Source of the DNA: Parelaphostrongylus tenuis
Taxonomy: Eukaryota > Nematoda > Chromadorea > Rhabditida > Metastrongylidae
Assembly: GCA_019055375.1 (NCBI GenBank)
Contig: JAHQIW010004073.1
Span: 1-64,000, forward strand
Direction of reading: 5' to 3'
DNA: 64,000 nucleotides
Part shown: piece after piece, positions 2,589 through 62,945 of the stretch
How positions within the stretch are numbered: the first letter of the stretch is position 1
Layout: each line of letters opens with the position of its first letter
Translations under genes and position numbers: made by a program
The notes under the pieces: generated by a model
What the model saw: only the letters and a program-made list of their open reading frames with translations
The model's database searches: none
Told to the model about the DNA's origin: nothing

Positions 2589-4350
2589 TTAATATCCAGG
2601 TGGAGTGCGAGGAGTGGGACAGTGGCTGCATTCTCCGTCGGGTCCTTTCGGTCCGACTGGTCCTTGCCCTCCGGGTTCTCCTCTGCGTCCTGGACGTCCT
2701 TTCTTTCCTTGATCTCCCGGTGGTCCTTGTGGTCCAGGGATGACAGACCCGGTACGCCCCTTGGGCCCACGTTCTCCCTTTCGACCTTGTGGTCCAGGTG
2801 GCCCAGGTGGTCCAGGAGGTCCAGTGACATTGATGACGCGACCATCCTCTCCTTTCTTTCCTTTAGGTCCCTGCACTCCTGGCTCTCCACCAGGCCCAGC
2901 GGGTCCAACCATTCCAGGCTCTCCACGACGACCATCGACTCCAGCAAGACCAGGTGAGCCACGAGGTCCCTGAGGTCCTTTCGCACCAGGGTTTCCTGGA
3001 GGCCCAGGTGGACCGGGTGGACAAATTATGCACGGCTCTCCTTGAAGTCCATCAGATGGCTCAATACCACCGTCACGTCCAGCTTTTCCATCGTGACCTT
3101 GGTCTCCATCACGACCGTCTTTGCCATCATCACCAGGTGGTCCAGGAGGTCCAACAGGCCCTTTTAAAAAGATTTAGAAGCAACAAAGCGCAAACAAAAG
3201 CTTGAAATATGTCTCATTACCTTGCTGACAAGTACAGCATTCGGGAGCGGGCTCTGGATTGACAACAGGTCCATACCCACTTTGGGGAGGAGATGGATAG
3301 TTAGACTGAAAATTTACTCTGTTATAGTCTTTAGAGTGTAGTTTCCAAGTAAGAAATCTATTTGAATTAAGCATGGTGCACTTGCCTCAGGATACTCGCC
3401 GCCGCCACCTGCACCACCGTCGGGCACCCACTGCCCGAAAAGCCATCCCCTTTTAGCACGTCCTTTAGGTGCCATTTGGTACATGCTGACGAGCATATCT
3501 CGAGAACGCATCTACAAACAAATTTGTTCGATAAACTATGTATTCAAACCGTCTTAAAATTGAGATTTTATGTTTTATAAATAACTTTACGTTGATGTGG
3601 AACAAATTAGTCAATCATATAAGTGGACTGCAACTATTTCATCATGCACACCTATCGTTAGTCTGTTGTTATGAAGCAGAAATGAGAAAAGTTTTGTGTA
3701 CTCACGCGGCAGAAGTCGGTTTCTGCATTGACCTGGCTCTGTAGAGTTTGTACGTAACTGTAAAGCATCGGAGTGGTGATCGCGGAAGCGATCACGGCAG
3801 CCGTCGACACCGCGACGGCGACGAATGCGATCGAACGCAAGCTGAACGAGTGATTTGGCAAAAATAAATTACCGTTCTAGCTGATTTGAAGTTAAGCTCA
3901 AAATTCTGTGTACGGTGTTCTTAGGTACGTGTAAGTAGCAACATTCTGTAGAATTGGCCATGAACTTCAGTGCGAACCTTGTCCACTAAAGCGTCTTTCA
4001 ATTAAGCTGGTAAAAATTTTACGGAAATCAAATAGCAGTGGTCGTCACACTTCAATAAGGCTTTTCTTAACGTTCAAGGTAATCGAAAAGCTAACATTTA
4101 AATCTTGAAAGCTGTTTAGTTTTACTCCTTCTTCTCAAAATGTGTCAGTTTTAACTAATTTTTTTTTTTAAAATGAGTGTCAATGTCCAAATATAACCTT
4201 CTCTGCGCAATGCGGCCGAACAAAAAAAATTCATTTCCTTATAAGATAGCGAGTGTTATTAGAAAGATATTAGCACCATTGTCAACAGTTCTTATAATAA
4301 TAATCCTATCCGAAGGAAACATACCGCTGATTGTCTTCCTTGTCGTCCAT
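2589..4350 (-). CDS. Cuticle collagen, complete, five exons
   Basis: Structural cuticle collagen, 314 residues, the usual family length. Exons on minus: 4350-4325, 3841-3706, 3511-3386, 3305-3221, 3160-2589; total 945 nt and every junction in phase. Exon 1 encodes MDDKEDNQR, matching MDHKETDEQR of the upstream paralogue, with donor GTATGT. Exon 2 gives the signal-anchor ([23 protein letters not shown]). Exon 3 has the RAKR cleavage site (about residue 75) and [11 protein letters not shown]. Exon 4 ends in CCTCQQ. Exon 5 is the Gly-X-Y domain, about 190 residues with a few interruptions (a PCIICPP cysteine pair, VINVT) and a C-terminal CSHC pair before GY-stop. The third intron (3385-3306) uses a GC donor; the nearest GT donor gives an immediate stop. 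Same orientation as the left collagen, hence a tandem pair. I do not assign a specific col/dpy name. Confidence 0.92.
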
Positions 4351-17289: not shown

Positions 17290-17540
17290 TCTGGTAGGAA
17301 TATGACATGTTTTGAGCCGATAGAGTAAAAATTGTTAATTTCATTATAAAAGCGAGAGTACCATCATTCAACTTGGAGTGATCAATTTTTACTCGGCGTC
17401 AATTCCTTTAAAGGATTTTCAAACCTCAGGGTATCGAAAGAACCGAGGGAGGGTGCTACTGATGAGTCCCAATAGGACGAAATATGCGCCTATATAGCGC
17501 TAGATCTACTGGCTCAAAACATGTCATGTCCCCGCTTCAA
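17290..17540 (+). repeat. Short inverted-repeat element carrying a hammerhead motif
   Basis: Ends are inverted repeats: gacatgttttgagcc near 17304-17319 and ggctcaaaacatgtc at 17511-17525. Inside, gagtaaaaattg (17323-17334) pairs with caatttttactc (17383-17394). The ribozyme core lies in the right half. About 150 bases of the right half (from tcggcgtcaa) recur at 49.66-49.81 kb. Confidence 0.65.
17453..17500 (+). ncRNA. Hammerhead ribozyme motif, type I, short stem III (family 1, intact core)
   Basis: Self-cleaving RNA motif. Stem I: 17453-17458 (GTGCTA) with 17495-17500 (TAGCGC), six pairs including one G-T. Core CTGATGA at 17459-17465. Stem II: GTCC 17466-17469 with GGAC 17475-17478, loop CAATA. 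Core GAAA at 17479-17482. Stem III has only three pairs (17482-17484 with 17491-17493). The cleavage triplet is ATA, with cleavage expected after 17494. All invariant core positions are present. The CTGATGAGTCCCAA-TAGGACGAAA arrangement closely resembles known metazoan repeat-borne hammerheads. Short stem III usually implies activity as a dimer or in a multimeric transcript; that is inference. Confidence 0.85.
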
Positions 17541-18139: not shown

Positions 18140-18530
18140 AGTCGAAAGTATCAAATAACATTAGTTGAAATATTCTTCCTTTGCCTGGATGCATTTCTGC
18201 CAGTGCTCCGAAAACAAACAATTCTGCGCTCATAAAACTCATCATTCTTAGTTGCAAATCAACCAGTCACTCTCTACGCATCGCTTCAGTAGCTTCAATG
18301 ATTGCTTCTCACTAATTTTGCGCGGTCTTCCGGATCTTAGCTGATCGGCCAAATTAACATCTCCATTGCAAGACTTTGTAAGCCATTCATACGCCATAGT
18401 TCTACCCACTACTTGGCGGCCTTCTGCACGACTGATGTTGTTAAATGCAGTTTGAAAATTGTGCACCAATTGAAACTCGTCAACCACTAAGTTGCAAATG
18501 AATTCCCGTGACTGCTCCATTGTTGGACGA
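18140..18530 (-). mobile_element. Mariner-family transposase remnant, N- and C-terminus joined
   Basis: On minus, 18520-18248 encodes a mariner/SETMAR-type HTH region: REFICNLVVDEFQ at the start, GRTMAYEWLTKSCNGD, then LADQLRSGRPRKI. The sequence then jumps to a mariner-like C-terminal tail (FMSAELFVF, LAEMHPG, FQL) in 18240-18145. The catalytic DDD domain is missing, so this is an internally deleted, non-autonomous relic. Confidence 0.8.
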
Positions 18531-19177
18531 GTATATGAAAGACCAATACCAAACGATGCGCACGAAGCTTGTACATAAAATTGGCAAGGGAAAAATTTTC
18601 TTGAGCGAAAATTTGTATTTCCTGGATCAAGTTCGGGAGCTTACTTGGATACCTGATTTACAATAACCTGTTCATGAGAATGATCTGATGTGCACAAGTC
18701 GGCATCGCACCTAGTTAAGTCGGAGGTAACTTCAGAATCGTAATGCACAACTTCTATTTGCTGTCTATTCTTTATTCATGGAAAGGTGCGATGTAAAGTA
18801 CAATCGCAAGAATGCTGAAATACGAACAAACCTCGTAACTTCAGTTGGGCTTTAAACCCGCAATTAGCCTTTCCGGGCCATAAATTAAGTTGATTCAACG
18901 CATCTTTGCTCCCCAATGACTATCATTGAAGGATGGTCATTCAAACGCATGTTAAGCTAGAAAATGGCTTGGAGTAAGGGAACGCAGGAACCCCGTTGGC
19001 GCTGTGTAAAATAGCGAATTCGCGCGGTGATTATCGCTGTTTCGAAGCCCTCTGAGGTTCTGAAATTTAGTCGTATCTCAGCATTGTGGTTGTGTTCCAC
19101 ATCATATTACGCCTGACGCCTGCTGACGCTCGTTTCAAAATTTTCAGAAAATTGAATTGAGAACTACCAAATAAGAC
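18531..19177. other. 5' flank of the chemoreceptor gene
   Basis: No coding or repeat signal that I can support. Confidence 0.4.
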
Positions 19178-22100: not shown

Positions 22101-25100
22101 GTGTCGCGAAATCCAACCCTTTGGAGTGCGAAAATCAATATTCTCCTGGTTATAACATTCTCTTTGAAAATAAAAAACGTCTTTGTAATTGCTGAAATTC
22201 GCACTATCGAATGGTTATTAATTGCTTAGAGAAAAAGCTTTATCCGGCGAAAAATCCTCAAATGTGAAACAAAATTTTATTTCGACTGTTACGGCGCAAA
22301 AAACAAGCCATTTGAGAAAACATAGTATACATTTGGGCAGCATTAACGTTAGTGATCAGATGATATTCGTTTTCCTTAACCGCTTATAGCGGATGATGTT
22401 TTGAATATATACCCATTGATGTAGGGCAATGTGCAAAACTTTCAAGTATGGCGGGATATTTGAAACATCATACCACCGCTAGAAGAGGTTAAATAAAACG
22501 AATATCATTCGATCTTCAATACCCAGTATCTGCCAGCGTGACTGAGTTCAATGTGGAGACCCACTACGCGGGCCAGGCCGTTGACGGCTGACGGCTGGCG
22601 GATAGGTGTGCTGAAGCGTGGAAAGAGCGATGTGCAAAATGGGTGTCAGTAGTGTAACGGATAGAGCACGCAATCCCGGAAAGAGTGAGGTGCGGGTTCT
22701 AGTCCCACCTGACGCGAAAGTTTTGCACATTGCTCCACATCAATTAGCATTAATTTTGTCAAAATCATTCATACAGGTGTCCTATAAGTGATATTTCATC
22801 GTTTTTTGCTGACAGTGCTCCTCTGAGAACTTTGAGATCCCGAAATTGTATTGGAGTGCCCACCACTCTTCGTAGTTCGTCCGAACAGCGCGCCCAGCTG
22901 AGGGTCATATTGACCCTTATCGTTCGCAAAGGGATATTGGATTTGCTTCATTTCTTCTATTATCTCAGAGTTTGGACAAAACAATGCATAAATGACTTTA
23001 GTTTAATTCAGACGGCTTTGATATTGTGCTGCCTCTTTGGTGTTTCAAATGGCGCTATTCTCCTTTCTGGAGAAATCCAGATGTTATGGGATCCGTGTAT
23101 TCCATCATTCTACTATACAAGTGAGTTTAACTACTTGGCGACCAAGTTGAGTCTGGGCGCGGCACGCGACGTGGTCGTGCGGCGAGCGCGGCGAGCTAGT
23201 CTCACGATGCGGTAGTCTTCTAATGAAATTTCTTCTTTTATCGTGAGTAAAAGGATTGTATTCGCAAACAAATCTAGGAAGTGATAGAAGAGGGGTTAAT
23301 AAAGCTATTTGCAATTAGAATATTGCCGATCCTCCTCCCTAGAACCCCGCGTTCTAAGGGAAAAGCCAGATGCTCACAATAATGGGGTGTTTCATAAAAT
23401 ATTTTCATGCTGTCTTATCCACCTTCATTCATAAGTCAATCATATTTATCTTCTATTCGTGTTATGTGGGGTGCATGATGTTGCAGTAAACCCAATAATG
23501 TAGAGTGGTGTGCAAGAACATTTGCGTCAGCCGTGATTCGAGATTTCACTCTTTCTGGGAGCATGTGCTGAACCGTTGCACCACTTTACATGATAACCAA
23601 ATAATCAAGCACTTCATCAATTTGTTTTTTTTTGAGTCAGAAATTACGATAAAGATCTTTCAGGTTTGAAATTATATCATCTCATGAAATACACCGAAGT
23701 CATGATAATGACTGAAAATGAGAAACCGAGCAACTGCTTATCAAAAATCATGGTGCACACTTATGCTATGCCACCTCATCAATAATTCTCAATAATTTCT
23801 AGATTCTCAGTAAAATTAGAGTTGGAACCTAAAAAAGCTTTGACCTATCGATTCATGGGTACTAACTTTTTTATCCGCGTCTATTCTGTAAGCTCCAATG
23901 TGCCCACACCCAGGTGGTTAGACGCTCAACAGTATAACAGAGACCTCCATGTTGCCCAACTGCTTCTGATAGGTATCGTTTTCTCCGGTGGGACTAATCC
24001 CTCCACTGCATTCTTTGTTTCAAGCTTTATTCAACCCTTAGCTAATGATAGAGTTATTCACACATTGGCCTTGTTAATTTCTACGAATATAGTTCACGAA
24101 TGCTACGAGGAATTGGGTACTTTTGCGTCACGGAACAACTCCCGGCCTAGAGCCAATTGTGTCTAAATGAACAGCAGAAAGATATCTGTGTCGATCGGAG
24201 GGACGATGGGATAGAAAAGGGGATCTTAGTCCTACACGTATCACACAGCAATGGCCAGTAACTAGAAGTAAATTCAATTTTGTTGCTCTCCTATTACACG
24301 CGGATTCTCAGGACACGTTGGCGTACTTCGTACTAAAAGTGCCTATGGAAATTTCGTTTGCAACATGTCGCTCCCTTGTGATATTGAAGTGTCCAGACCA
24401 TCTAAATTCCGCTACATAACTGTTAATAAACCCCCGGCGAAGCTCAAGCAATGGGATATTCCGAAGACGAAGCATATTTTTCTTCGCGCTGGTACTACTC
24501 AAAAGAAGCCTTTCTAAAAACCAAGTCTAGTACTAAAGTCTCTAACTTATCACCTATCGAATGGATGCTAGTAGTGTACTTAAAAAGGAAGGCGTATAGT
24601 GTATGAGTGCTTTTCTATTGAGGTGCTCCAAAATTTGATCAGTGCGAGCACTGTCGATGATAACTTCGGCCACAAACTAGAATTCCCTCCATATGTTTCT
24701 TTTACAGGCTCCACATTGCGGGACATGTGTTTTCGAGTCAAATACTTATAGAATAGGCAATAGAAATGCGCAGTGAGGACTAAAAGTATGGTTCTCCCAA
24801 CGATATACCTTTCGAAATACAAGATGGAGATTATTGAAACACGTGGGAATTCTCTATGCAAAAAATACGTTTCTCCAATAAATGATCCACCTTTTCATAA
24901 CAATTAGTTTGACTAAAAATCACAATTCATTTACATAAGTGCCCAAAAGGTCGCAGATCAGACAACGGGGCTATTTAGCCCAAAAGCAAAGCGTAATTCT
25001 CTTACTTATTACAGCGCAATAAGAAGGTTTTTCTATAAATCAAACCTAGTACAAAAATCTTCATTTCTCAAGCTACCGATTGATTACTAATAGTTTAGTG

Positions 25101-32744: not shown

Positions 32745-32975
32745 ACTCAGAATCAAGCATTGACCAAGGCAAGATGGTAAATAATTGACGAAAGACGACG
32801 GGTACCTGCCCGGCTGACGAGTCTGTAAGGACGAAACACGTGTATCGGGCTGTATAAGAGCCCTTACCAGACCACATGACAAGTTGGCTCAAATAATAAT
32901 GAAAGGATATATTGAAATTTGAGCGTGGTCTAAACAAAGCACCCGAAATAAACGTATAATTGACGAGATTTATAC
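32745..32975 (+). repeat. Hammerhead-bearing repeat, family 2, copy at 32.8 kb
   Basis: Shares agacgacgggt, the ribozyme core, then accagaccacatgaca, ggctcaaataataatgaaa and tgaaatttgagcgtggtct with copies at 62.72-62.94 kb (same strand) and, inverted, at 39.65-39.88 and 62.51-62.66 kb. No transposase or RT is encoded. Confidence 0.8.
32808..32850 (+). ncRNA. Hammerhead ribozyme motif, type I, short stem III (family 2)
   Basis: Stem I: GCCCGG 32808-32813 with TCGGGC 32845-32850 (five Watson-Crick pairs and one G-T). Core CTGACGA 32814-32820; the position-7 base is C instead of U, a tolerated position. Stem II: GTCT-GTAA-GGAC 32821-32832 with a GNRA-like GTAA loop. GAAA at 32833-32836. Stem III is ACAC/GTGT with no loop. 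The triplet is GTA, cleaving after 32844. Outer bases GGG (32800-32802) and CCC (32861-32863) could extend stem I across an internal loop, as in tertiary-stabilised hammerheads. Confidence 0.85.
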
Positions 32976-38380: not shown

Positions 38381-39644
38381 TACGTCATTAGCAAGAAAAC
38401 ATGAAGCAAAAATACACTTCAATATCATGTTAATCATAGCCGCATCTAGTTAACAATATAATCAAATATCAAATGGCAAATTTCGACAATGTACAACCCC
38501 ATATCTTTTGCACCAACGCGATGCCGACCAATACTCAAAGGATCAACGCATAGCCACACCAATTTTCACTTGAAAAACCACAAGATAAAGTTCGGTGTGC
38601 TGTCGCAGGTTACGGCGAAGCCCCGGCTACGCCAGTGGTTCAGTGTCGATGAGTAATCTTTCACTTAACCATACCTCATGTCACCAAGAGTCGACCCAGT
38701 GGCGACGACAGTGAGTAGCTCTATGTAGCAATGACAGCACAAAAACAACTCGATTATAGGCGGCAGGGAAGCATTTTAGGAGTGAAACATAAACTTCTTT
38801 CCACTTTTGAAGCGATATATGGCAATCTTTCCATAAACGAACTTTATCATCAGAATTCTCGAGATTTGGGTTATCCAATGAGTATTAAAACTTTAGTGAA
38901 GAGCCATATAACGGCCCCCGTCGATGAATGAAGGAAATTGAACTGAAAAATAATTTTGGTTTCGTTGTTACAACGTGATTAAAAGCTTTTCCTAGAGTTA
39001 AACAGGTCTTACAAATCTCAGAGTTTAAGCTTTCGACTGATTAATAAATGTTAAGAGAAAACCCTTCTGCAGCGATAAAGGCCTTCAAACAATCGTGTAC
39101 CTGAGGTAATACACGACGGCCCTTGAAGGTTAAAGTGGGGATGTATCATCTATCAATAGGTCAAAATATCCAAGTTTGAGGTTTAATCTGTAAAAATGTA
39201 GAAGTCTCCCGCCTGGCAAACGAGAAGACAAGCAATCTGTATTCAGCTAGCAGTACACAAAGTCATTTTTGAGAATATCACTGAACAAACACTACGATCT
39301 TCGGCTAATGCACATGCTATATGGAGAATTCTGCAAAACTGCTCAGTCGCAATCAAGTTGATAAGATGGAAAGAAAATTCTAAAGCACTTGTAAAAAATT
39401 CTAAATTTATGCATAACAAAAACAATAATAAATATTCTTCAAAACAAAGGATCGTTCTACGACTTTTTGCCATCGGTCCGGTCCGAGTTCCGAATTTGGT
39501 CAAAGTACCACCATTCTTTCAACTTTGCTGTGAAAATTTTTTCTTCAATAAAGACGCAATGAAACACGAGCATCGATTGTATCTTCTGACATGGCGAGGC
39601 TTGTAAAAAGTGAAAGTAAAGAAGAAAACCTTTTGTTCAAATGT
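38381..39644. other. No supported gene
   Basis: About 38990-39080 contains another short stretch of the satellite-like family (agtttaagctttcgactgatta). Nothing else recognised. Confidence 0.4.
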
Positions 39645-39885
39645 TTTCTGAGACCACGCTCAAATTTCAGCATATCTCGTAATTATTATTTGAGTCAGCA
39701 TGTTATGCGGTCTGTTAAATGGGCTGACTTATAGAGCGCGATACACATGCTTCAACCTTGATAGTCTCGTCAGTCGGGCGGTACCCTTCGTCTCTAGCCA
39801 ATCCTCTCGGGGCGCTCAGTCCCTTTTGCTAAAAGTAGGCGGCGACGAACATTTTACACTGTATGCCAAGCGAAATTATCACTGA
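39645..39885 (-). repeat. Hammerhead-bearing repeat, family 2, decayed inverted copy
   Basis: The minus strand retains CTGACGA (39773-39767) and flanking arms, but the second core strand reads GAAG and stem II has lost complementarity. The flanks (gaccacgctcaaattt, ttatttgagtca) and the upstream 110 bases align with 62.72-62.94 kb, which extends the family's length. Confidence 0.7.
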
Positions 39886-39954
39886 ATACACAGTGTTGTA
39901 TACTCGATTGTTCTTGGCTGGTATCGTTAGTACATCATACCTTTTATTTCAAGT

Positions 39955-40060
39955 GTTTTCTTATGACCACGCTCAAATTTCGACGTAACTGGCAATTATT
40001 ATAAGTCAGCCGATTCAACAGATTGCACGACATGTTGGCTCAAAAATTAACCACGAGATA
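39955..40060 (-). repeat. Family 2 hammerhead repeat, 3' fragment only
   Basis: gaccacgctcaaatttcg and gacatgttggctcaaaa match the 3' part of the family; no ribozyme core is present. Confidence 0.6.
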
Positions 40061-40330
40061 TAAAGAAGAATAATATCCAGGTCTTTAGTGGGACATATGG
40101 AGCCGTGATATTCCCATGATACATATTCATGGAAATTATCTCATGCTTAATAAATGCCCAAGAACTTCCTTTCCAATCTTATACTGGGTCGGTCATCTTC
40201 GACTGCCTTAGAGGAGATAGTTCTGGTTGCGTATCACAGTACGATCGCGAAATGAGTCGTCTTGGTTGAACGGAGGAATCCCTACAGTACTCCAAAAAGC
40301 AATGCTTTTGACTGTCATCCATTTGTTCGT

Positions 40331-40637: not shown

Positions 40638-41190
40638 TAGGTTGGAATGAAAATTTCCATCGTCTAAATGGAAATGTAGTTTTCTCGCATTATTCGCGTG
40701 TGATTTTTACATCATTTGAACGGTCTCTTCATGCTCATCTATCAGTATATAATTTATCTATATCTGCTGCAGAATGAAGTTGTCCACGGAAGTACCCAGA
40801 AGTTGTTCGTCGAAAGAGCGCTTTGTTTCAGCAAGACAACGCAAAACCACACACAGCCGAAAAGTCCAAGGCAAAGTTTGAGGAATTGGACGGAGTCGAG
40901 ATTCTACCACATCCGTCCAATAGTCCTGACGTTGTTCCATCTGATTACGGCCTTTACCGATCAAAGCAACACTTATTGGAAGGTCGCCAATTTGAATATT
41001 TCGATGAAGTTGAGGAAGCATGGTCAAGATTTCTTCAATTCGAAGACGAAGGAGTGGTACTTCGACCAGATCCGAGACCTGGCGAATCGATAGCAAAAAA
41101 TAGTAGATAATAATTTTCTCTATTTTGAAGAATAGTTGTTGTTATGTTATCTGAATATATACAAAAATTCTGAATGTTTATCAAACGATC
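40638..41190 (+). mobile_element. Mariner transposase, C-terminal half, with inverted-repeat ends
   Basis: Starts at taggttggaatgaaaatttcc; the right end near 41187 is the inverse (ccgacctagc). 40823-41110 encodes FQQDNAKPHTA (second catalytic Asp), then about 34 residues on PDVVPSDYGLYRS (third Asp of the DD34D triad) and FDEVEEAWSRFLQ, WYFDQIRDLANR-type ends split over two frames. The N-terminal half with the first Asp is deleted, so it is not autonomous. Confidence 0.9.
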
Positions 41191-48300: not shown

Positions 48301-51300
48301 AAAATATCATATTCTTTAAGAGAATTCGAACTTTTATATGGAAGTGAATTATTTGAGAATAAAACACAGTACATGTTTTTGTCAGCATGTACTTGAAGGT
48401 TGGTTTGTCTCGATCGGCCCCTGCAATAGCGAGAAAATGTTCCTCGGCTTCCTTCCACATCCCACACTGCATTTCGGCTTGAGCGATATTGAACAAGAAC
48501 ACGTCATCGTTGTGATGATAAGCCCAAAACAGAAAGTTCGAAATGAGCAGCAAAACAAACAAATTTTTAGGAAATTAGCAAACACGAAAGAAAAACCTGG
48601 ATCGAGTTTAAATAAACTAATGCATCATCGTATTGGCCGCTGAGGAAGAGCGAACATGCCATGCTCTGACGACCAGGTATCGTATCTATGAATAATCATT
48701 CTAAAATCCGTAAATTAATCACTCTTTGACTCTCTACAATTAACAGAAGCATTTAGAGTTACTATAATTGTAGCTGGTAATACGAAGTTTACTTCCAGGT
48801 TAAGATCTGCTGAGAATTTGTTTGGGATGTTATTACAAGCTAAGCTATGTTCAATGCTCACCGGTATCATAAGGTGACTCTCCGACCATTTTGAAGAAAT
48901 GTTCGGCCGTTTTGAGGTGATCCTTCTGAAGAAAGGGGCAATATAGTTGATTTCCCACTACAAGAAGTGATACGATTAGAATGATTTGACTGTGGAGCCT
49001 TCTCACCGATTCCTTCATTTGTCCCCAATAGGCAAGCGTGACAGCCTTGACGAGAAACTCAGTGGTAGTCTGAGGCTCAAGATCGTTGCAGAGAGTCATT
49101 GCACTCTCGATGTCTTCTGAATAATTATGGGGAAAAACATCCACATTTGTTAGATATGAAAGTCAAAAAAGAAGATGTAAGGTTATACGAAATTTGATGA
49201 GTTTTCTCAATAGCTGTGGCACTTACCGTTGGAAAAATAAATTTCTTGTGAATCATTTTGATAGTGGTTTGTGAAGGAAAACTTCATAATGTGTCTGACT
49301 TTGTCAACTTTCGATTCACTATGCATTTGAAAATTACATGCTTTCAATAGTTTCAAATGACCTAAAAATCTGCTTAGAATGAAGGCGCGCAATATCTAGT
49401 GTTGGCCAGACAAGTTATCGTATGATCGGTGGTGATACTGCTGGTATGAAGAAATTATTCTAAACATTTTTCATAACAGTCTTACAAGAGAGATGGCCCC
49501 TTTGCATTAAATGCTTAGAAATGACTCACCAATGATCCTCAGTAGACGACATGTGGAATGTTTTTCAGATACTAAAGAAGTAGAGGTATGACTCATTCTA
49601 AGAGCTATAAGCTCGGCTGCCGATCACCACAGCGTCAGGTAATTCCATCATCTGACTTGCGGTGATTTTTTAATCGGCGTCAAATCTTTTATAGAGGATT
49701 ATTTAGCTTCAAGAGGTCGGCTGAACTTAGAGAGAGTGCTGATGAGTCCCAATATTGCGAAACAGGCGCCTGTATAGCACTAGATCTAGCAGCTCAAAAC
49801 ATGTTATATTCTTAACTGGAGAAATAGATATAGGGATTAAATGATAGGAAAAGCCAACGTGATTACGCTTGTTATTCTCTAGACAACCGTCACACTATGA
49901 ACGGCTGAATATGCCCTGCTGGCCAAATTCAATAAGCGTACCCCTTTAAATGCATGCATGATCATACCAAAGCTGCTATTTTGTTTTGAAATCATACCTT
50001 CATTGATCGTAGGCAGATTTCGATGAAATTTCAAAAACTTGATCGCTGACATTGACAGAATTGAATGAAAATTTCGAAATAGCAGAAAGGGTTTACCTTG
50101 CTAATCAGATCACTGCTCATCATTAACCCTATACGGCAGTGTTCAATAGTAAAACTTCGTTGATACCCAGCCGTACCACAAACTCTTGTTGAAATTTGAC
50201 ATTTTGTAAGCGATGATTGTCTATGATAATATAGTAACCGTCTTGATAATCGTCTCTCAGCGGTAAGACTAAGAGGACAAGATTGGCATCCGACAAGTTT
50301 ACCATCGCGCTCCACTCAGTGCCTAGTGCTTATAGGAAAAAGATAATGAGATTGGCCGATACACAGGTAAGGTTCTTTTCGCAGCCTCTTCTGCTCAAAT
50401 TGAAACTAATAAAGAACAACTATCAGTTCTTCAGAGTTAACGCTAAGATTTGAATTCAAATAAAATTTACAAAGATGAATTGGTTTAGGTCAAGTTAATA
50501 ACCACAGCATCCACCCTCTTGCTCTCAAATGGCTACCCATTTGCGTTACATTACTCATTATTGCTTGATTTTACAAACCACTAATAATTGAGTGTCATCA
50601 ATCCATCAAAAATTATATTTTCAAAGAATTCAAATCAAGAATAAATCGTAACACATTTATCCTTTTACTCAGAATACTCTTACCTCTCTTCAAATGGTAC
50701 AAAATTAGATTGATCCCCGCCTCTGGTAGCGTATCCATCAATCCGGGAAACACCTGTAGTGCTCCATCACCATCGTTGAATACCACCTATGGAAATAACT
50801 ATGTGCTAATGTTCTTGCAAGTGCACTCTAGCGTTTTCTGGCTTGTAATACTCGTAGAACAAAAACATACTTTTCACAACTTGTTAGGTTGCCCACAACT
50901 TCTTTCGCATCTCGACACTTTCGTTAGTTCAATTGTTATTTATTCGAAGAAATCAAATTAGCGATCTAATCAGCACCGTGGCCAAAGACATGCAGCCATT
51001 TGCTGGGCAAATATTTGATGCTTTACTCTCAGGAAAATTGGGGTTGGCAATCAAGGAAGTCGGTGAGGTCACTTTTCAGCACGTTGTAGTCTTTGAACTT
51101 TCTTTCGCAGATGCCGCTTTAGAGATGATACTTCGATAGTGTCCGTATCAGAGCCATGTGGTGGATTTGGAAAGAGTGGTCCAGCCTAGTTTCACCAAAA
51201 CGTGGCGAATCGACTTTACAGTGTGAGGTTGAGTGCTATCCTGGAAAATGACAACACTAAGTTTTTATGGACGCTCCTCTCGCACAAGTGTGGCCAACTT

Positions 51301-54300
51301 CCGCGTTGTTACTGGTAGACGTCGCGCCGGCATTGATTGTCTGCTTGCTATCGAGCAGTTTTCAGAACACCATATTGTGCCAATCCCAGAAAACTAAAAG
51401 CATAATCTTCCGAGCATGGAACATTGGCTTTGTCTGAGCATTGAGCATGTTTGTCTTATTTGATTCGCAGTTAATCATTCCCGCCGCGTGTATCACTTTA
51501 TATACCTCTCTGACTAATGTTACTAGAACTTTCTCCGACATATCTCAGACTTTTAGTAATAAGCATTTGAATGAGAAAAAATCCAATAAACAATAATGTG
51601 AGAAAGATTATTGGGCAACTCAATAGGTTGAGAAATAATAAAAAATCATAGTAGATTTACTTGATTATGACGAAGTAGCTCTTTGGCAGCCGGATATAGA
51701 CTCACTCGTTGAAGGACATCGACCTCAGGCTTAAAACAGTGAAGAGTTTTCTTTCCTCATTTTGTAACATGCATCTTGATCTTTAAGCCTCAAATAAACA
51801 AAGGGAAAATCGATTACCAAAGCAGCTTTTCCATTGTAGGTTTTGAAAGTGATGCAGGCTTTCAAATTCAGAGCTGCTGGGCTGTTTGGAAATGATCGAA
51901 GGTATACACTGAGAACCTCCTGAATGATGGACTTCATCCATTGTAAAAAGGACTGAAATGGAAAAGAGAAGAACTATGTAGATAAAAAGATAGGTTAATA
52001 CTTCAGCACAAAAAAGTTGTAATGAAGTAAGGAAAGAGTCAAATAAAAAGAGTAAAGAGTAAATAAGCAAAGTCTATGTCATCGAGAATGCGGAATTACT
52101 GGAGAAGAGTTTAAAGTAAGGATCCCAGAACGTAGAAGGTGACTCAAAGAAATCAGAATGTGGAAGAAAAAAGTGCTTTATGTCGATTTTGAATTATATC
52201 GACATGGAACTAATTTTGTGTAGACTTTCTCGACTAGTCCAGAGGAATAAAAAATCAAAAGATCTTAAATTGAACAGATAAGCCTCCAAAGTGGAAGTAA
52301 CACAACTTTGTTGTCCGCATTGATATTTTTTGCACACAATCTGTTGATATGTCGCAAAGAGTTCTTTGAGCAGATTTGCTGGCAACATTTTGCAAACATC
52401 ATAAAAGATTGTCTTGCAGTTGTGAAGAAACCAGGCAAAAGTTTGACAATGAATTACGATTTTCATGTAAAACTACCTGCGCCACATCGAAGAAGTCCAT
52501 TTTGTAATAACACATCGCCATGTAAACGTTCAGCGCAATCATATTCCTGATGGTAACATCTATTTTCTTCATCAATCAATCAATAAAAATTAGTGTACTT
52601 CTGATTTTTATGGAAACCAAACATTTTTTTTCTAGTCATTCAATATGTTCGAAAAAATTGATGAAATAAGTGGTTCTTGTTCTAGAGAAGATTTCCCATC
52701 ATTATTCAGTCAATTGAAGATTTTTGAACAATTTGCCTAAGAAGATATGATTTTTGAGCTTATTCAAAAAACATATATTCTTGAATACGCTCATTTAAAA
52801 TACACTTTATAGGCAAGAAAAACATCAAAGTAAATCGTGATACTTGTTTTCATATGCAGTACAGAGACTGCACAAAATATAGGAATTGATTTTCGCCATC
52901 ATTCGATCAATAATGCTACTAAACGCAGCTCGCTTTGAGTACAGCGCGTCTGATCAATGCAGATGATTACGATTACTTATATTGTAAAAATAACTCACGT
53001 GTGTTCTTGAAGAATGCTCTTATAAATTTCGATAGCTTCTGTGTAATGCATACGCATGTAATGAATGGATGCCAACGATAACTGATCCTCCATGGTATTC
53101 TGAATTTTGATTTGAAAACGTGGTGCTTCAATGGGTTTATGGCAAACATTTTCATTATTGTCTGTGAGAATGTTTGGAGCCTTTAAAGAAAGGCTCTAAA
53201 CATTCTTATAGACTATATTGAATATATAAAGTGAGGTTCTAAAACCGTCGAATTCTACATGTTCACACTTTTCGTTGATATTTTTACAATAATAGCAAAA
53301 TTACTACTATGACTACTTCTACTATCTTTAAAAACTATTATCTGCCAAGTTCATGAAAAATAAGGATACCTCGATGGAATTAATTTCTTAAAAGCATGAA
53401 TAACAACAACGCACGCTAAGTAGTTGATGATGAGTCATCAGCCTCTTTTCATCTCCGAGTTTGTGCGATACATGGAAGAGTAGCCTATTCTGAAGAGGTG
53501 TTCGCTCGGCTACAATAGTCATTGGATTATCAACGAGCTGCCAGATTACGATCAAAAATGATTAATTCCATAGGATTCCTTCATCTTATAATGGCTTGTT
53601 CATTAGCGTATGGGAATAATAAGCTAACAAGCCGGTTATCATGTACTCCTTTTATTCACACCACATTCTCCTATCTTTGGGTCAGCACATGACCGCACTT
53701 TTTCTGATCTTTATTTATTGCCAAAATTTCAATACAAGATAGCCTACATAAGAGCGAAATTGAGAGCTCGCGGTAATCTCAGCCTATGAGCACCCTTTCC
53801 AGAGACTTCTTGAGTTTCCACTACGCTATGAATACTGCCAACTAGCTTTTCTCTCAGCCGCTTTTTCTCCCATTAGGTTAGCAATGACCCATGGAAAAAT
53901 CAATTTAGGGAGCAAAATTCGAAATAAATCGTGCTTAAGCCGAATCCCTGGTTGAATGCAGCTATGACTGAGAAATTAAATAAAGTACAGAAAATGTAAT
54001 TTCAACCACGGCTCTAGATTGATTCGTGTTTATGTCGATGTGAGCTTTTAGATCAATCCCGTACACTGCTAATTGCTGACAGCCACCGAATGGATTGGAG
54101 CACGCCCGAGAAAAAGTCGGAGCCATGTCTCGATGAGAAAGTGGACAACACGTGAGCCCCAGAAATGGTGTGGGCTCGTAGCCATCTCGAGTCTCATGCT
54201 TTTCTCAATCGAAGACGTAAAGAGACAAGTTATCGACGCCGACAGTGGAAGAAAGAAAGGGAGGAAGTGGCTTACGGCACCCATAACATGTGCAGGATGT

Positions 54301-61362: not shown

Positions 61363-62507
61363 AGATGTGTCATGCACGCCACTTCATTAAGCTTCCTTAA
61401 AGATGACTAAATGCATATCTGGCCTTTAAGACGACCTGTGATAGCTTACTCAGATACATAGGATTACCTTCCCAAAGAAATGTACCAAATTGTCGAGCAT
61501 GGAGAGAGGAGAGGTCGCTTAGCTTGGAACGCGGGATTAAGCCAATGAGCGCGGATATACAGCACGGCATCTGTGACCACTGCTCTGTACAAGCCCCACT
61601 TAATTGTGCATACATATTTATTTAGAGTACTTTCGAGCATGTACATCGCATTTTCTATTCAGAGGATAAGCTTCATGTTTATGGCGAACCGAAATGATGA
61701 TCACATACGTGGCATAGCATGCATATACAGATATGGCCCAATAATTGTGCGTGGTCGTAGCGTATACCGACCTGAATGTTTCCAAAAATTTGTGGTCACG
61801 TGGGACAGCAGTGCATGAGAGCGGGATTCAGAGCGGTCACCGACAAATAAGTCAAATTTCTACTACACCAAAACCTAACAACTCACCTATGAATACGCTT
61901 TTCTACTCAAAGCAAAGTCACCGGAGGTACTCAATGCTACCCTTTCGTCAGAAGCAATTTGATAGGTAATTCTCAGCAGTCACAATTGTTTGGCGGCATA
62001 AGACGATGTCTAATTTCATGCTGAGTATTGGGCAGTACTGTTTTTCAAAATAAACACTTCTTTTTTTGATAATGGTGGACATGAGATAACCACAAAACTA
62101 GGGTGATTATAGAAAGAACATTACCTCATTACTTCAGATATTTTCAGTATTTTTCAGTATTCCAGTATTTCTAGTATGTGTTATTAGGCTCCATACCTAG
62201 TATTGCCAGCAATCGGGAGTGTCCTGCAACGTTAAAAGAATTCTGGTGTTTCCTCAAGTATCCGTTTCATACCATGACCATGTTCATCATACTGATTGGA
62301 AATGAAATAGCAATTCTCTAGTGGTCAGAAATTAGACTGTGCATGCTGTTAGATGATGCTAGTCTTTCGCCACACATGCGAAGCACACAGCATGGATATA
62401 TAAATTTGAGAACTAAAAAACTTCTAGAACATTTCGTTCCGTCATTCAAATCTTTATTTTCATAATACTTTGACAATTCACTCATCGTTTGGAGATAATT
62501 TACTTTT

Positions 62508-62662
62508 CCTTCGAGTGCTTTATTAAGACCACGCTCAAATTTCAATAGATCCTTTCATTATTATTTGAGTCAACATGTCATGTGGTCTGGTAAAGGCTCT
62601 TGTACAGCCCGAGACACGTGTCATGTCATGTGGTCTTAATAAAGCACTCGAAGGAAAGGTAT
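62508..62662 (-). repeat. Family 2 hammerhead repeat, truncated, within inverted ends
   Basis: Ends ccttcgagtgctttattaag and its inverse (62635-62658) flank a minus-strand copy of the family's 3' part, which begins after the ribozyme core (ACACGTGTCTCGGGC is retained, CTGATGA and GAA are lost). Confidence 0.7.
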
Positions 62663-62717
62663 AATATGATAAAATACCAGCCAGCTAGCAATCGAGTGCG
62701 AAAACGCTCTGTGTTAG

Positions 62718-62945
62718 GTGAATGTTTCACCTGACATAGAGTGTAAAGCGTAGGTCTGTCGATAACTATATATAAGGGGTATGACGCTCCCGAGAGAACT
62801 GACTATGAAAAGATCGACAGACGACGGGTTCTGCCCGGCTGATAAGTCTGTAAGGACGAAACACGTGTCTCGGGCTGTACAAGTGCCTTTACCAGACCAC
62901 ATGACATGTTGGCTCAAATAATAATGAAAGGATAATTTACTTGTC
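62718..62945 (+). repeat. Family 2 hammerhead repeat, longest copy
   Basis: Aligns with 32.75-32.97 kb downstream of agacgacggg and with the inverted 39.65-39.88 kb copy also further upstream (catagagtgtaaa, cgctcccgagag). The element is thus at least 220 bases. A minus-strand open frame across it (SQHVMWSGKG, DTCFVLTDLSAGQ) is shared with the 32.8-kb copy but is best explained as read-through of the repeat. Confidence 0.8.
62833..62875 (+). ncRNA. Hammerhead ribozyme motif, family 2, with G8-to-A change
   Basis: Stem I GCCCGG 62833-62838 with TCGGGC 62870-62875. Core CTGATAA 62839-62845, where the essential G8 is A (62844). Stem II GTCT-GTAA-GGAC 62846-62857, GAAA 62858-62861, stem III ACAC/GTGT, and the strong GTC triplet cleaving after 62869. 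The G8 change should abolish activity of this copy, but it shows what the consensus looked like. Confidence 0.8.

Follow-up and report, generated by a model that had tools for sequence, protein, structure and literature searches.

Hammerhead-bearing insertions in the window

The 64,000-nucleotide stretch of Parelaphostrongylus tenuis DNA analyzed here (the window) contains three insertions of a short repeat that carries a type I hammerhead ribozyme (Table 1). Other features include a cuticle collagen gene at 2589-3173 on the minus strand (best relatives in Caenorhabditis, 81% over 87%, in keeping with a rhabditid or strongylid host) and two frames, at 18248-18640 (-) and 40778-41110 (+), which we take to resemble fragments of mariner-type transposases. 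Two copies of a sister hammerhead family are found at 17361-17527 and 49645-49807 on the plus strand (about 17.36-17.53 and 49.65-49.81 kb), and the unit of this family differs from that of the repeat described here.

Table 1. Insertions of the repeat in the window and their parts. S and T are the two usual 3' ends of arms, described in the text.
Feature	Position	Strand	Description and basis
Insertion A	32792..32955	+	One arm, 5'-truncated just upstream of the hammerhead, ends at T; recognized by a blastn match with the unit and a duplication of 11 bp at the target site
Left target-site duplication of A, ATAATTGACGA	32781..32791	.	Right copy 32956-32966, exact match
Type I hammerhead of A	32808..32850	+	Core intact; RF00163, 30.4 bits
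Outer stem I extension of A	32800..32863	+	GGG 32800-32802 with CCC 32861-32863, enclosing the hammerhead
Tail of A	32887..32955	+	Hairpin GCTCAAAT..ATTTGAGC whose loop contains the S site, followed by T where the element ends; from the fold of a related copy's tail and end positions over 59 loci
Insertion B	62506..62930	+	Minus-strand arm from 62506 (T end) to ~62621, head to head with an arm on the plus strand that has its end at S (62930)
Left target-site duplication of B, GATAATTTACTT	62494..62505	.	Right copy 62931-62942, exact match
Hammerhead of B	62833..62875	+	Core broken at G8 (CTGATAA); RF00163, 27.8 bits, E 0.012
Insertion C	39627..40060	-	Arm on the minus strand with its end at T (39627), which meets head to head, near 40000, a short arm on the plus strand with its end at S (40060)
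Left target-site duplication of C, TAAAGAAGAA	39617..39626	.	Right copy 40061-40070, exact match
Hammerhead of C	39736..39779	-	Diverged: stem I mismatch, A15.1 changed to G; included in the covariation alignment

The initial annotation placed hammerheads at 32.81 and 62.83 kb, and both are full-length matches to the Rfam model RF00163 (Hammerhead_1), though below its gathering score of 34. Using cmscan with permissive thresholds, the copy in insertion A covers model positions 1-45 of 45 with an E-value of 0.0016, and that in insertion B also matches over its whole length. A weaker match (22.6 bits, E 0.63), likewise below the gathering score, falls at 17453-17500 in the sister family. Because of their scores, the hammerheads of insertions A and B are omitted by a default Rfam scan. 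The two copies are 93% alike (32806-32909 compared with 62831-62934). The sequence of the first is GCCCGG-CTGACGA-GTCTGTAAGGAC-GAA-ACACGTGT-A^TCGGGC, where ^ marks the predicted cut between 32844 and 32845. Its core is intact, as had been proposed, with CTGACGA...GAAA and the cleavage triplet GTA. In the second copy the core is broken by a change of G8 to A, and a third, weaker hammerhead lies within insertion C.

Stem III was originally described as a loop-less pairing of ACAC with GTGT. Taken literally this reading fails, since 4 bp without a loop cannot close as a hairpin, and the stem is better read in the monomer as a 2-bp helix closed by ACGU, a palindromic tetraloop, or alternatively as 8 bp formed between two copies. 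A nearest-neighbour thermodynamic model gives helix III of the monomer a pairing probability of ~0.01 and favors a fold other than the hammerhead (-20.6 vs -16.8 kcal/mol; -22.8 vs -17.4 kcal/mol with flanks). Given a rival fold favored by about 4 kcal/mol (5 with flanks) and the low probability of helix III, the model makes it plausible that a dimer or a protein would help the ribozyme. The suggestion that an outer GGG/CCC pairing could prolong stem I is supported by a helix of 7 bp that extends the stem beyond a 6-nt bulge on the 3' side, with 89.7% of cells paired in an alignment of 35 sequences. Presumably the GUAA loop 2 and this bulge could form the usual tertiary contact.

Pieces at 39.7, 40.0 and 62.55 kb had been counted as partial copies, for a total of at least five in the window. 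These pieces are the arms of insertions C and B, and the window thus holds three insertions in total. Exact target-site duplications of 11, 12 and 10 bp flank A, B and C, respectively. The arms of C were recognized from blastn pairs (39672-39733 with 40061-40000, minus; 39628-39699 with 39939-40010, plus), and their ends were placed by eye.

The repeat family and its conserved ribozyme

Full units of the repeat recur with a period of 319 nt. The reference unit has a GC content of 44%, and we noticed no long coding frame in the unit. The expectation of a dispersed family is confirmed by searches of the P. tenuis genome (481.5 Mb in 5105 contigs), which gave 3060 first-look candidates with 62630-62934 as query, 2902 with 32784-32961, and 3172 with a member of a third subfamily (L019:2107-2373). 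In each case the best 40 were scored, so that the loci studied are the best-scoring 40 of approximately 3,000 per search, and the three candidate sets may overlap. Tandem units and target-site duplications, both features that the initial annotation proposed to look for, are present, the former with the 319-nt period and the latter as the 10-12-bp duplications of the three window insertions. Outside this genome, the ribozyme pattern occurs 0 times in viral contigs and 0 times in GTDB contigs, neither of which is expected to contain nematodes.

The arms range from a fraction of a unit to slightly over two units, and their 5' ends are varied. Their 3' ends fall mostly at two places, here called S and T, approximately 47 nt apart and both downstream of the ribozyme. 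Counting from the predicted cut after unit base 239, S is mostly at +61 to +73 and T mostly at +108 to +120. In the fold of a related copy, S lies in the loop of the tail hairpin formed by GCTCAAAT and ATTTGAGC. Many arms are preceded by an inverted arm with a head-to-head junction between the two.

Automated classification of 59 loci yielded 64 clusters, 42 with two arms and 22 with one; L016, L051 and L055 are split into several clusters in this classification, and L019 is mis-joined to a neighbour. In 37 two-arm clusters one arm ends at S and the other at T, two clusters are T/T (L039 and the decayed L051), three have one atypical end (L010, L033 and L058), and none is S/S. If ends were chosen independently and evenly, at least 37 mixed clusters among the 39 classifiable would arise with a chance of about 1e-9. 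Sixteen one-arm clusters end at T and six at S, the second set of loci being biased toward T because its queries included the T end. The window insertions agree with this pattern, A having one arm that ends at T, and B and C two arms that end at S and T. Target-site duplications of at least 10 bp are found at 30 of 65 clusters (60 loci), compared with 2 of 1000 mismatched flanks, and the commonest length is 12 bp (15 clusters); in this count L024 repeats L008, and the narrow search misses some duplications, for example at L007 and L017.

The 5' end of a one-arm cluster coincides with the predicted cleavage site in 1 of 22 cases (L055, unit base 241), and cleaved linear RNA is therefore not the evident template. 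Units of one element are no more alike than units of different elements, with divergences of 3.2% within the same arm, 2.7% between opposite arms and 2.9% between elements, figures derived from only six informative sites. At one locus, two opposite arms of the family are separated by an 890-bp spacer (L016:1835-2724) that is itself dispersed-repeat sequence. By eye, a single flanking duplication may enclose both arms and the spacer, which would look like the capture of foreign sequence, and a reading of the spacer in six frames found no clear long frame.

The ribozyme core pattern is kept in 86 of 109 copies from the fetched loci and the window, a count from which L001, L024 and L031 were left out as duplicate views. 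The pattern demanded A, C or T at position 17, and a copy with G at this position was scored as broken. The sequence ACACGTGT is retained in 75 of the 86 copies with an intact core. To assess covariation we used an alignment of 35 sequences chosen for diversity, mainly out of 86 distinct ones. In this alignment 93.2% of cells pair, compared with a mean of 91.4% after shuffling, and 10 cells are changed on both sides, compared with a shuffled mean of 3.1; neither value was reached in 500 shuffles. Two of the five covariation measures fail to exceed the shuffles, namely the number of pairs with a change on both sides (4; reached in 102 of 500) and the number of further pair types (21; reached in 176 of 500). 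The clearest compensatory change is a stem II pair that goes from U-A to A-U in six rows, which represent fewer than six independent events because the rows are related. Between subfamilies, the hammerhead region is 69-92% conserved and the unit body 61-81%, and the hammerhead region is the higher in all five comparisons. The core elements GAAA and CTGANGA, whose loss across the family would have told against the initial annotation, as would a lack of structural constraint, are thus retained in most copies, and stem II covaries. We reject a chance hammerhead on the conservation of the core together with the covariation.

Autonomous Penelope-like elements of the same genome

Elements of the Penelope type with a GIY-YIG domain are abundant in P. 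tenuis. A search for this domain returned 1723 candidates, of which 150 were scored; all 150 were above the cut-off, with frames of up to 902 amino acids. One stretch of 608 amino acids includes both RVT_1 (2.8e-11) and GIY-YIG (5e-8) in a single frame. Named relatives are from strongylid nematodes: Ancylostoma (62% over 97%), Angiostrongylus costaricensis (78% over 51%), Necator and Haemonchus. Many head-to-head pairs occur among these elements, to which loci L061-L090 belong. At the 5' end of one element (L096) the order is hammerhead, S, start codon (ATG), T, and then the ORF. The Penelope hammerhead is minimal, with ACGU as stem III.

In 30 fetched Penelope loci, S and T are the places where the ends of copies cluster, although some ends fall at other positions. 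Six of these loci have two arms, and by eye five (L064, L071, L073, L077 and L083) are S/T, the sixth (L072) having one atypical end. A duplication of 12-13 bp is present in three of five two-arm loci tested, compared with at most 6 bp in 20 mismatched pairs. We also fetched, as 181-nt ends, 10 of 20 head-to-head pairs from the GIY-YIG search. Nine are S/T, and the remaining one combines T with an atypical end. Duplications of 12-13 bp flank seven of the ten pairs and one of 8 bp flanks another, compared with 1 of 90 mismatched pairs at 8 bp or more.

Measured from the predicted hammerhead cut, S in these pairs is at +61 to +72 and T at +104 to +110. The spacing is thus close to that of the repeat family, but not exactly the same, since T is mostly at +108 to +120 in the latter. 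The two tails have GCTCAAA in common (at +39 and +43) and little else. Searches with blastn of the unit against the 30 Penelope loci gave only short, chance-level matches to the pseudo-LTR; the strong matches in these loci are separate copies of the family nearby.

Affinities and probable mobilization of the family

The family shares a type I hammerhead, tandem units of a few hundred base pairs, and a helix III of 2 bp with a tetraloop with the metazoan non-LTR retrozymes, as these are presented in the available text of PMC7229834 and PMC7761336. It has the multicopy tandem units of ~150-450 bp, the GC content under 50% and the target-site duplications over 4 bp by which such elements are recognized. 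The family differs from them in that its copies are short and dispersed, with double ends of the Penelope type and arms joined head to head, features that the available portions of those papers do not describe. The corresponding text of PMC7229834 lists retrozymes in cnidarians, molluscs, rotifers, platyhelminths, annelids, crustaceans, insects, 'among others', and amphibians, without naming nematodes; it gives invertebrate hammerheads a helix III of 2 bp with a tetraloop, and amphibian ones palindromic tetraloops and dimeric action. We found no report of nematode retrozymes in the literature searched, whose coverage leaves out most subscription journals. Schistosome Sm-alpha, Sj-alpha and W-elements, called putatively mobile in PMC8490949, are likewise short helminth hammerhead repeats. 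However, their hosts are flatworms, and Penelope-type ends are not described in the part of that report available.

The available text of PMC7229834 and PMC7761336 leaves open the enzyme that mobilizes animal retrozymes and treats Penelope elements as strong or likely candidates. In the portions of PMC11167929 and PMC3846280 at hand, Penelope-like elements resemble the family in having two internal 3' ends that delimit a tail, inverted arms of which one carries the tail, target-site duplications, and a hammerhead just upstream. Specifically, in Anolis both strands are cut and extended by the Penelope protein, whose two start sites are internal, lie next to each other and bound the tail (PMC11167929, in part), and one of the inverted pseudo-LTRs of Adineta elements may or may not include the tail (PMC3846280, in part). 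The family differs from Penelope-like elements in that its unit has no reverse transcriptase or endonuclease, its hammerhead is fuller, with an outer stem, and no match to the pseudo-LTR sequence was found here. It is not an autonomous Penelope element, which has an ORF with a telomerase-like reverse transcriptase and GIY-YIG; the 319-nt unit is far too short, and these domains occur in separate elements.

We conclude, with a probability of about 0.8, that the repeat is a short hammerhead retroelement (a non-LTR retrozyme) with Penelope-type insertion ends, for which the Penelope-like elements of this genome likely provide copying and insertion in trans. The scars left by its insertions match those of the resident Penelope elements, from which we infer that the repeats likely spread via the Penelope enzyme. 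The initial annotation also raised the possibility of tRNA primer-binding sites, an idea that finds no support, judging from the Penelope-type ends. From its sequence, RNA of the family would be cleaved, circularized and mobilized in trans. The unit may be transcribed as a multimer that then cleaves itself, probably better when two ribozymes pair through the palindromic stem III. The tail of the RNA would be bound by the Penelope protein, which would cut both target strands approximately 12 nt apart. Reverse transcription would start at S from one strand and at T from the other, with a head-to-head junction then made between the two cDNAs.

It is possible that the repeat is instead simply a Penelope element without autonomy, of which internal deletion has left no more than the pseudo-LTR, and the name retrozyme would then add nothing. 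The ends, the duplications and the pairing of arms are alike in the two, and the hammerhead is equally placed relative to S and T. However, the chance-level blastn matches between the unit and the pseudo-LTRs of the 30 Penelope loci, and the fuller hammerhead of the family with its 7-bp outer stem compared with the minimal one of Penelope, make this explanation the less likely one. Since 150 of the 1723 GIY-YIG candidates were scored, a Penelope family with this tail may exist.

Less probable still is that the hammerhead is a passenger with no catalytic role and that the tail alone moves the element. The available text of PMC11167929 reports that hammerhead mutants of the Anolis element left insertion in vitro unaffected, and that the Anolis ribozyme required protein. 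These results, like the single one-arm 5' end (of 22) at the predicted cleavage site in the family, speak against a need for cleavage. The predicted rival fold and the 23 of 109 copies without an intact core pattern would also fit a passenger, but preservation of the core in the other 86, the compensatory changes in stem II and the greater conservation of the hammerhead region between subfamilies (5 of 5 comparisons) all argue against this reading. A MITE or other DNA transposon, with the inverted arms as fixed terminal inverted repeats, would account for these arms, the target-site duplications and the lack of a noticed long frame, but is very improbable, being contradicted by the single arm in 22 of 64 clusters, the unequal arm lengths, and, in 37 of 42 two-arm clusters, a difference between the two outer ends in the unit position at which they stop.

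The presence of the tail on one arm only is a habit of Penelope already described; the present data add a count of it and show that it also occurs in a ribozyme element that lacks a reverse transcriptase. In the Anolis work no difference in start site was seen between the strands (PMC11167929, in part), whereas in P. tenuis the arms of a given insertion mostly have different ends. The pairing of one S with one T constrains how a Penelope enzyme handles its two target strands. More broadly, the data provide sequence evidence for the partnership between retrozymes and Penelope that PMC7229834 and PMC7761336, in the parts available, call likely, and identify an abundant nematode repeat. The matching scars (spacing of ends, length of duplication and pairing of ends) turn the question of the mobilizer into a direct biochemical test. 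We suggest tentatively, at somewhat less than even odds, that the hammerhead and the ~110-nt tail are a portable priming cassette that would make any carrier RNA a Penelope substrate, that at least two ribozyme families here became Penelope parasites in this manner, and that each double-primed insertion is the work of an asymmetric dimer of the enzyme, with priming at S on one target strand and at T on the second.

The second of these families would be the sister family noted above, for which a search of the genome gave 1601 first-look candidates, 40 of which were scored. In the four pieces read it resembles the family described here in having a hammerhead with a palindromic stem III, a tail hairpin with GCTCAAA, head-to-head arms and a duplication. 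Its stem III is a 12-nt palindrome, ATAGGCGCCTAT, in all four pieces, compared with 8 nt in the other family. The tail hairpin pairs GCTCAAAA with TTTTGAGC, and the 3' strand TTTTGAGC is present in three of the four. Two of the four pieces have head-to-head arms, and one (L093) has a duplication of 13-14 bp by eye. The initial annotation regarded the two families (the sister family being at 17.4 and 49.7 kb) as distinct, which holds for their sequence, but not for the anatomy that these four pieces have in common with the family described here.

Two further features were observed in the window. Related tRNA-like matches at 2247-2319 and 22643-22716 on the plus strand (34.9 and 37.1 bits with Rfam), which lie in repeated DNA and are 76% alike over 68 nt, are possibly a tRNA-derived short repeat. 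A near-perfect hairpin at 53144-53229, which matches a MIR1120-type model below the gathering score, is probably a MITE-like palindrome.
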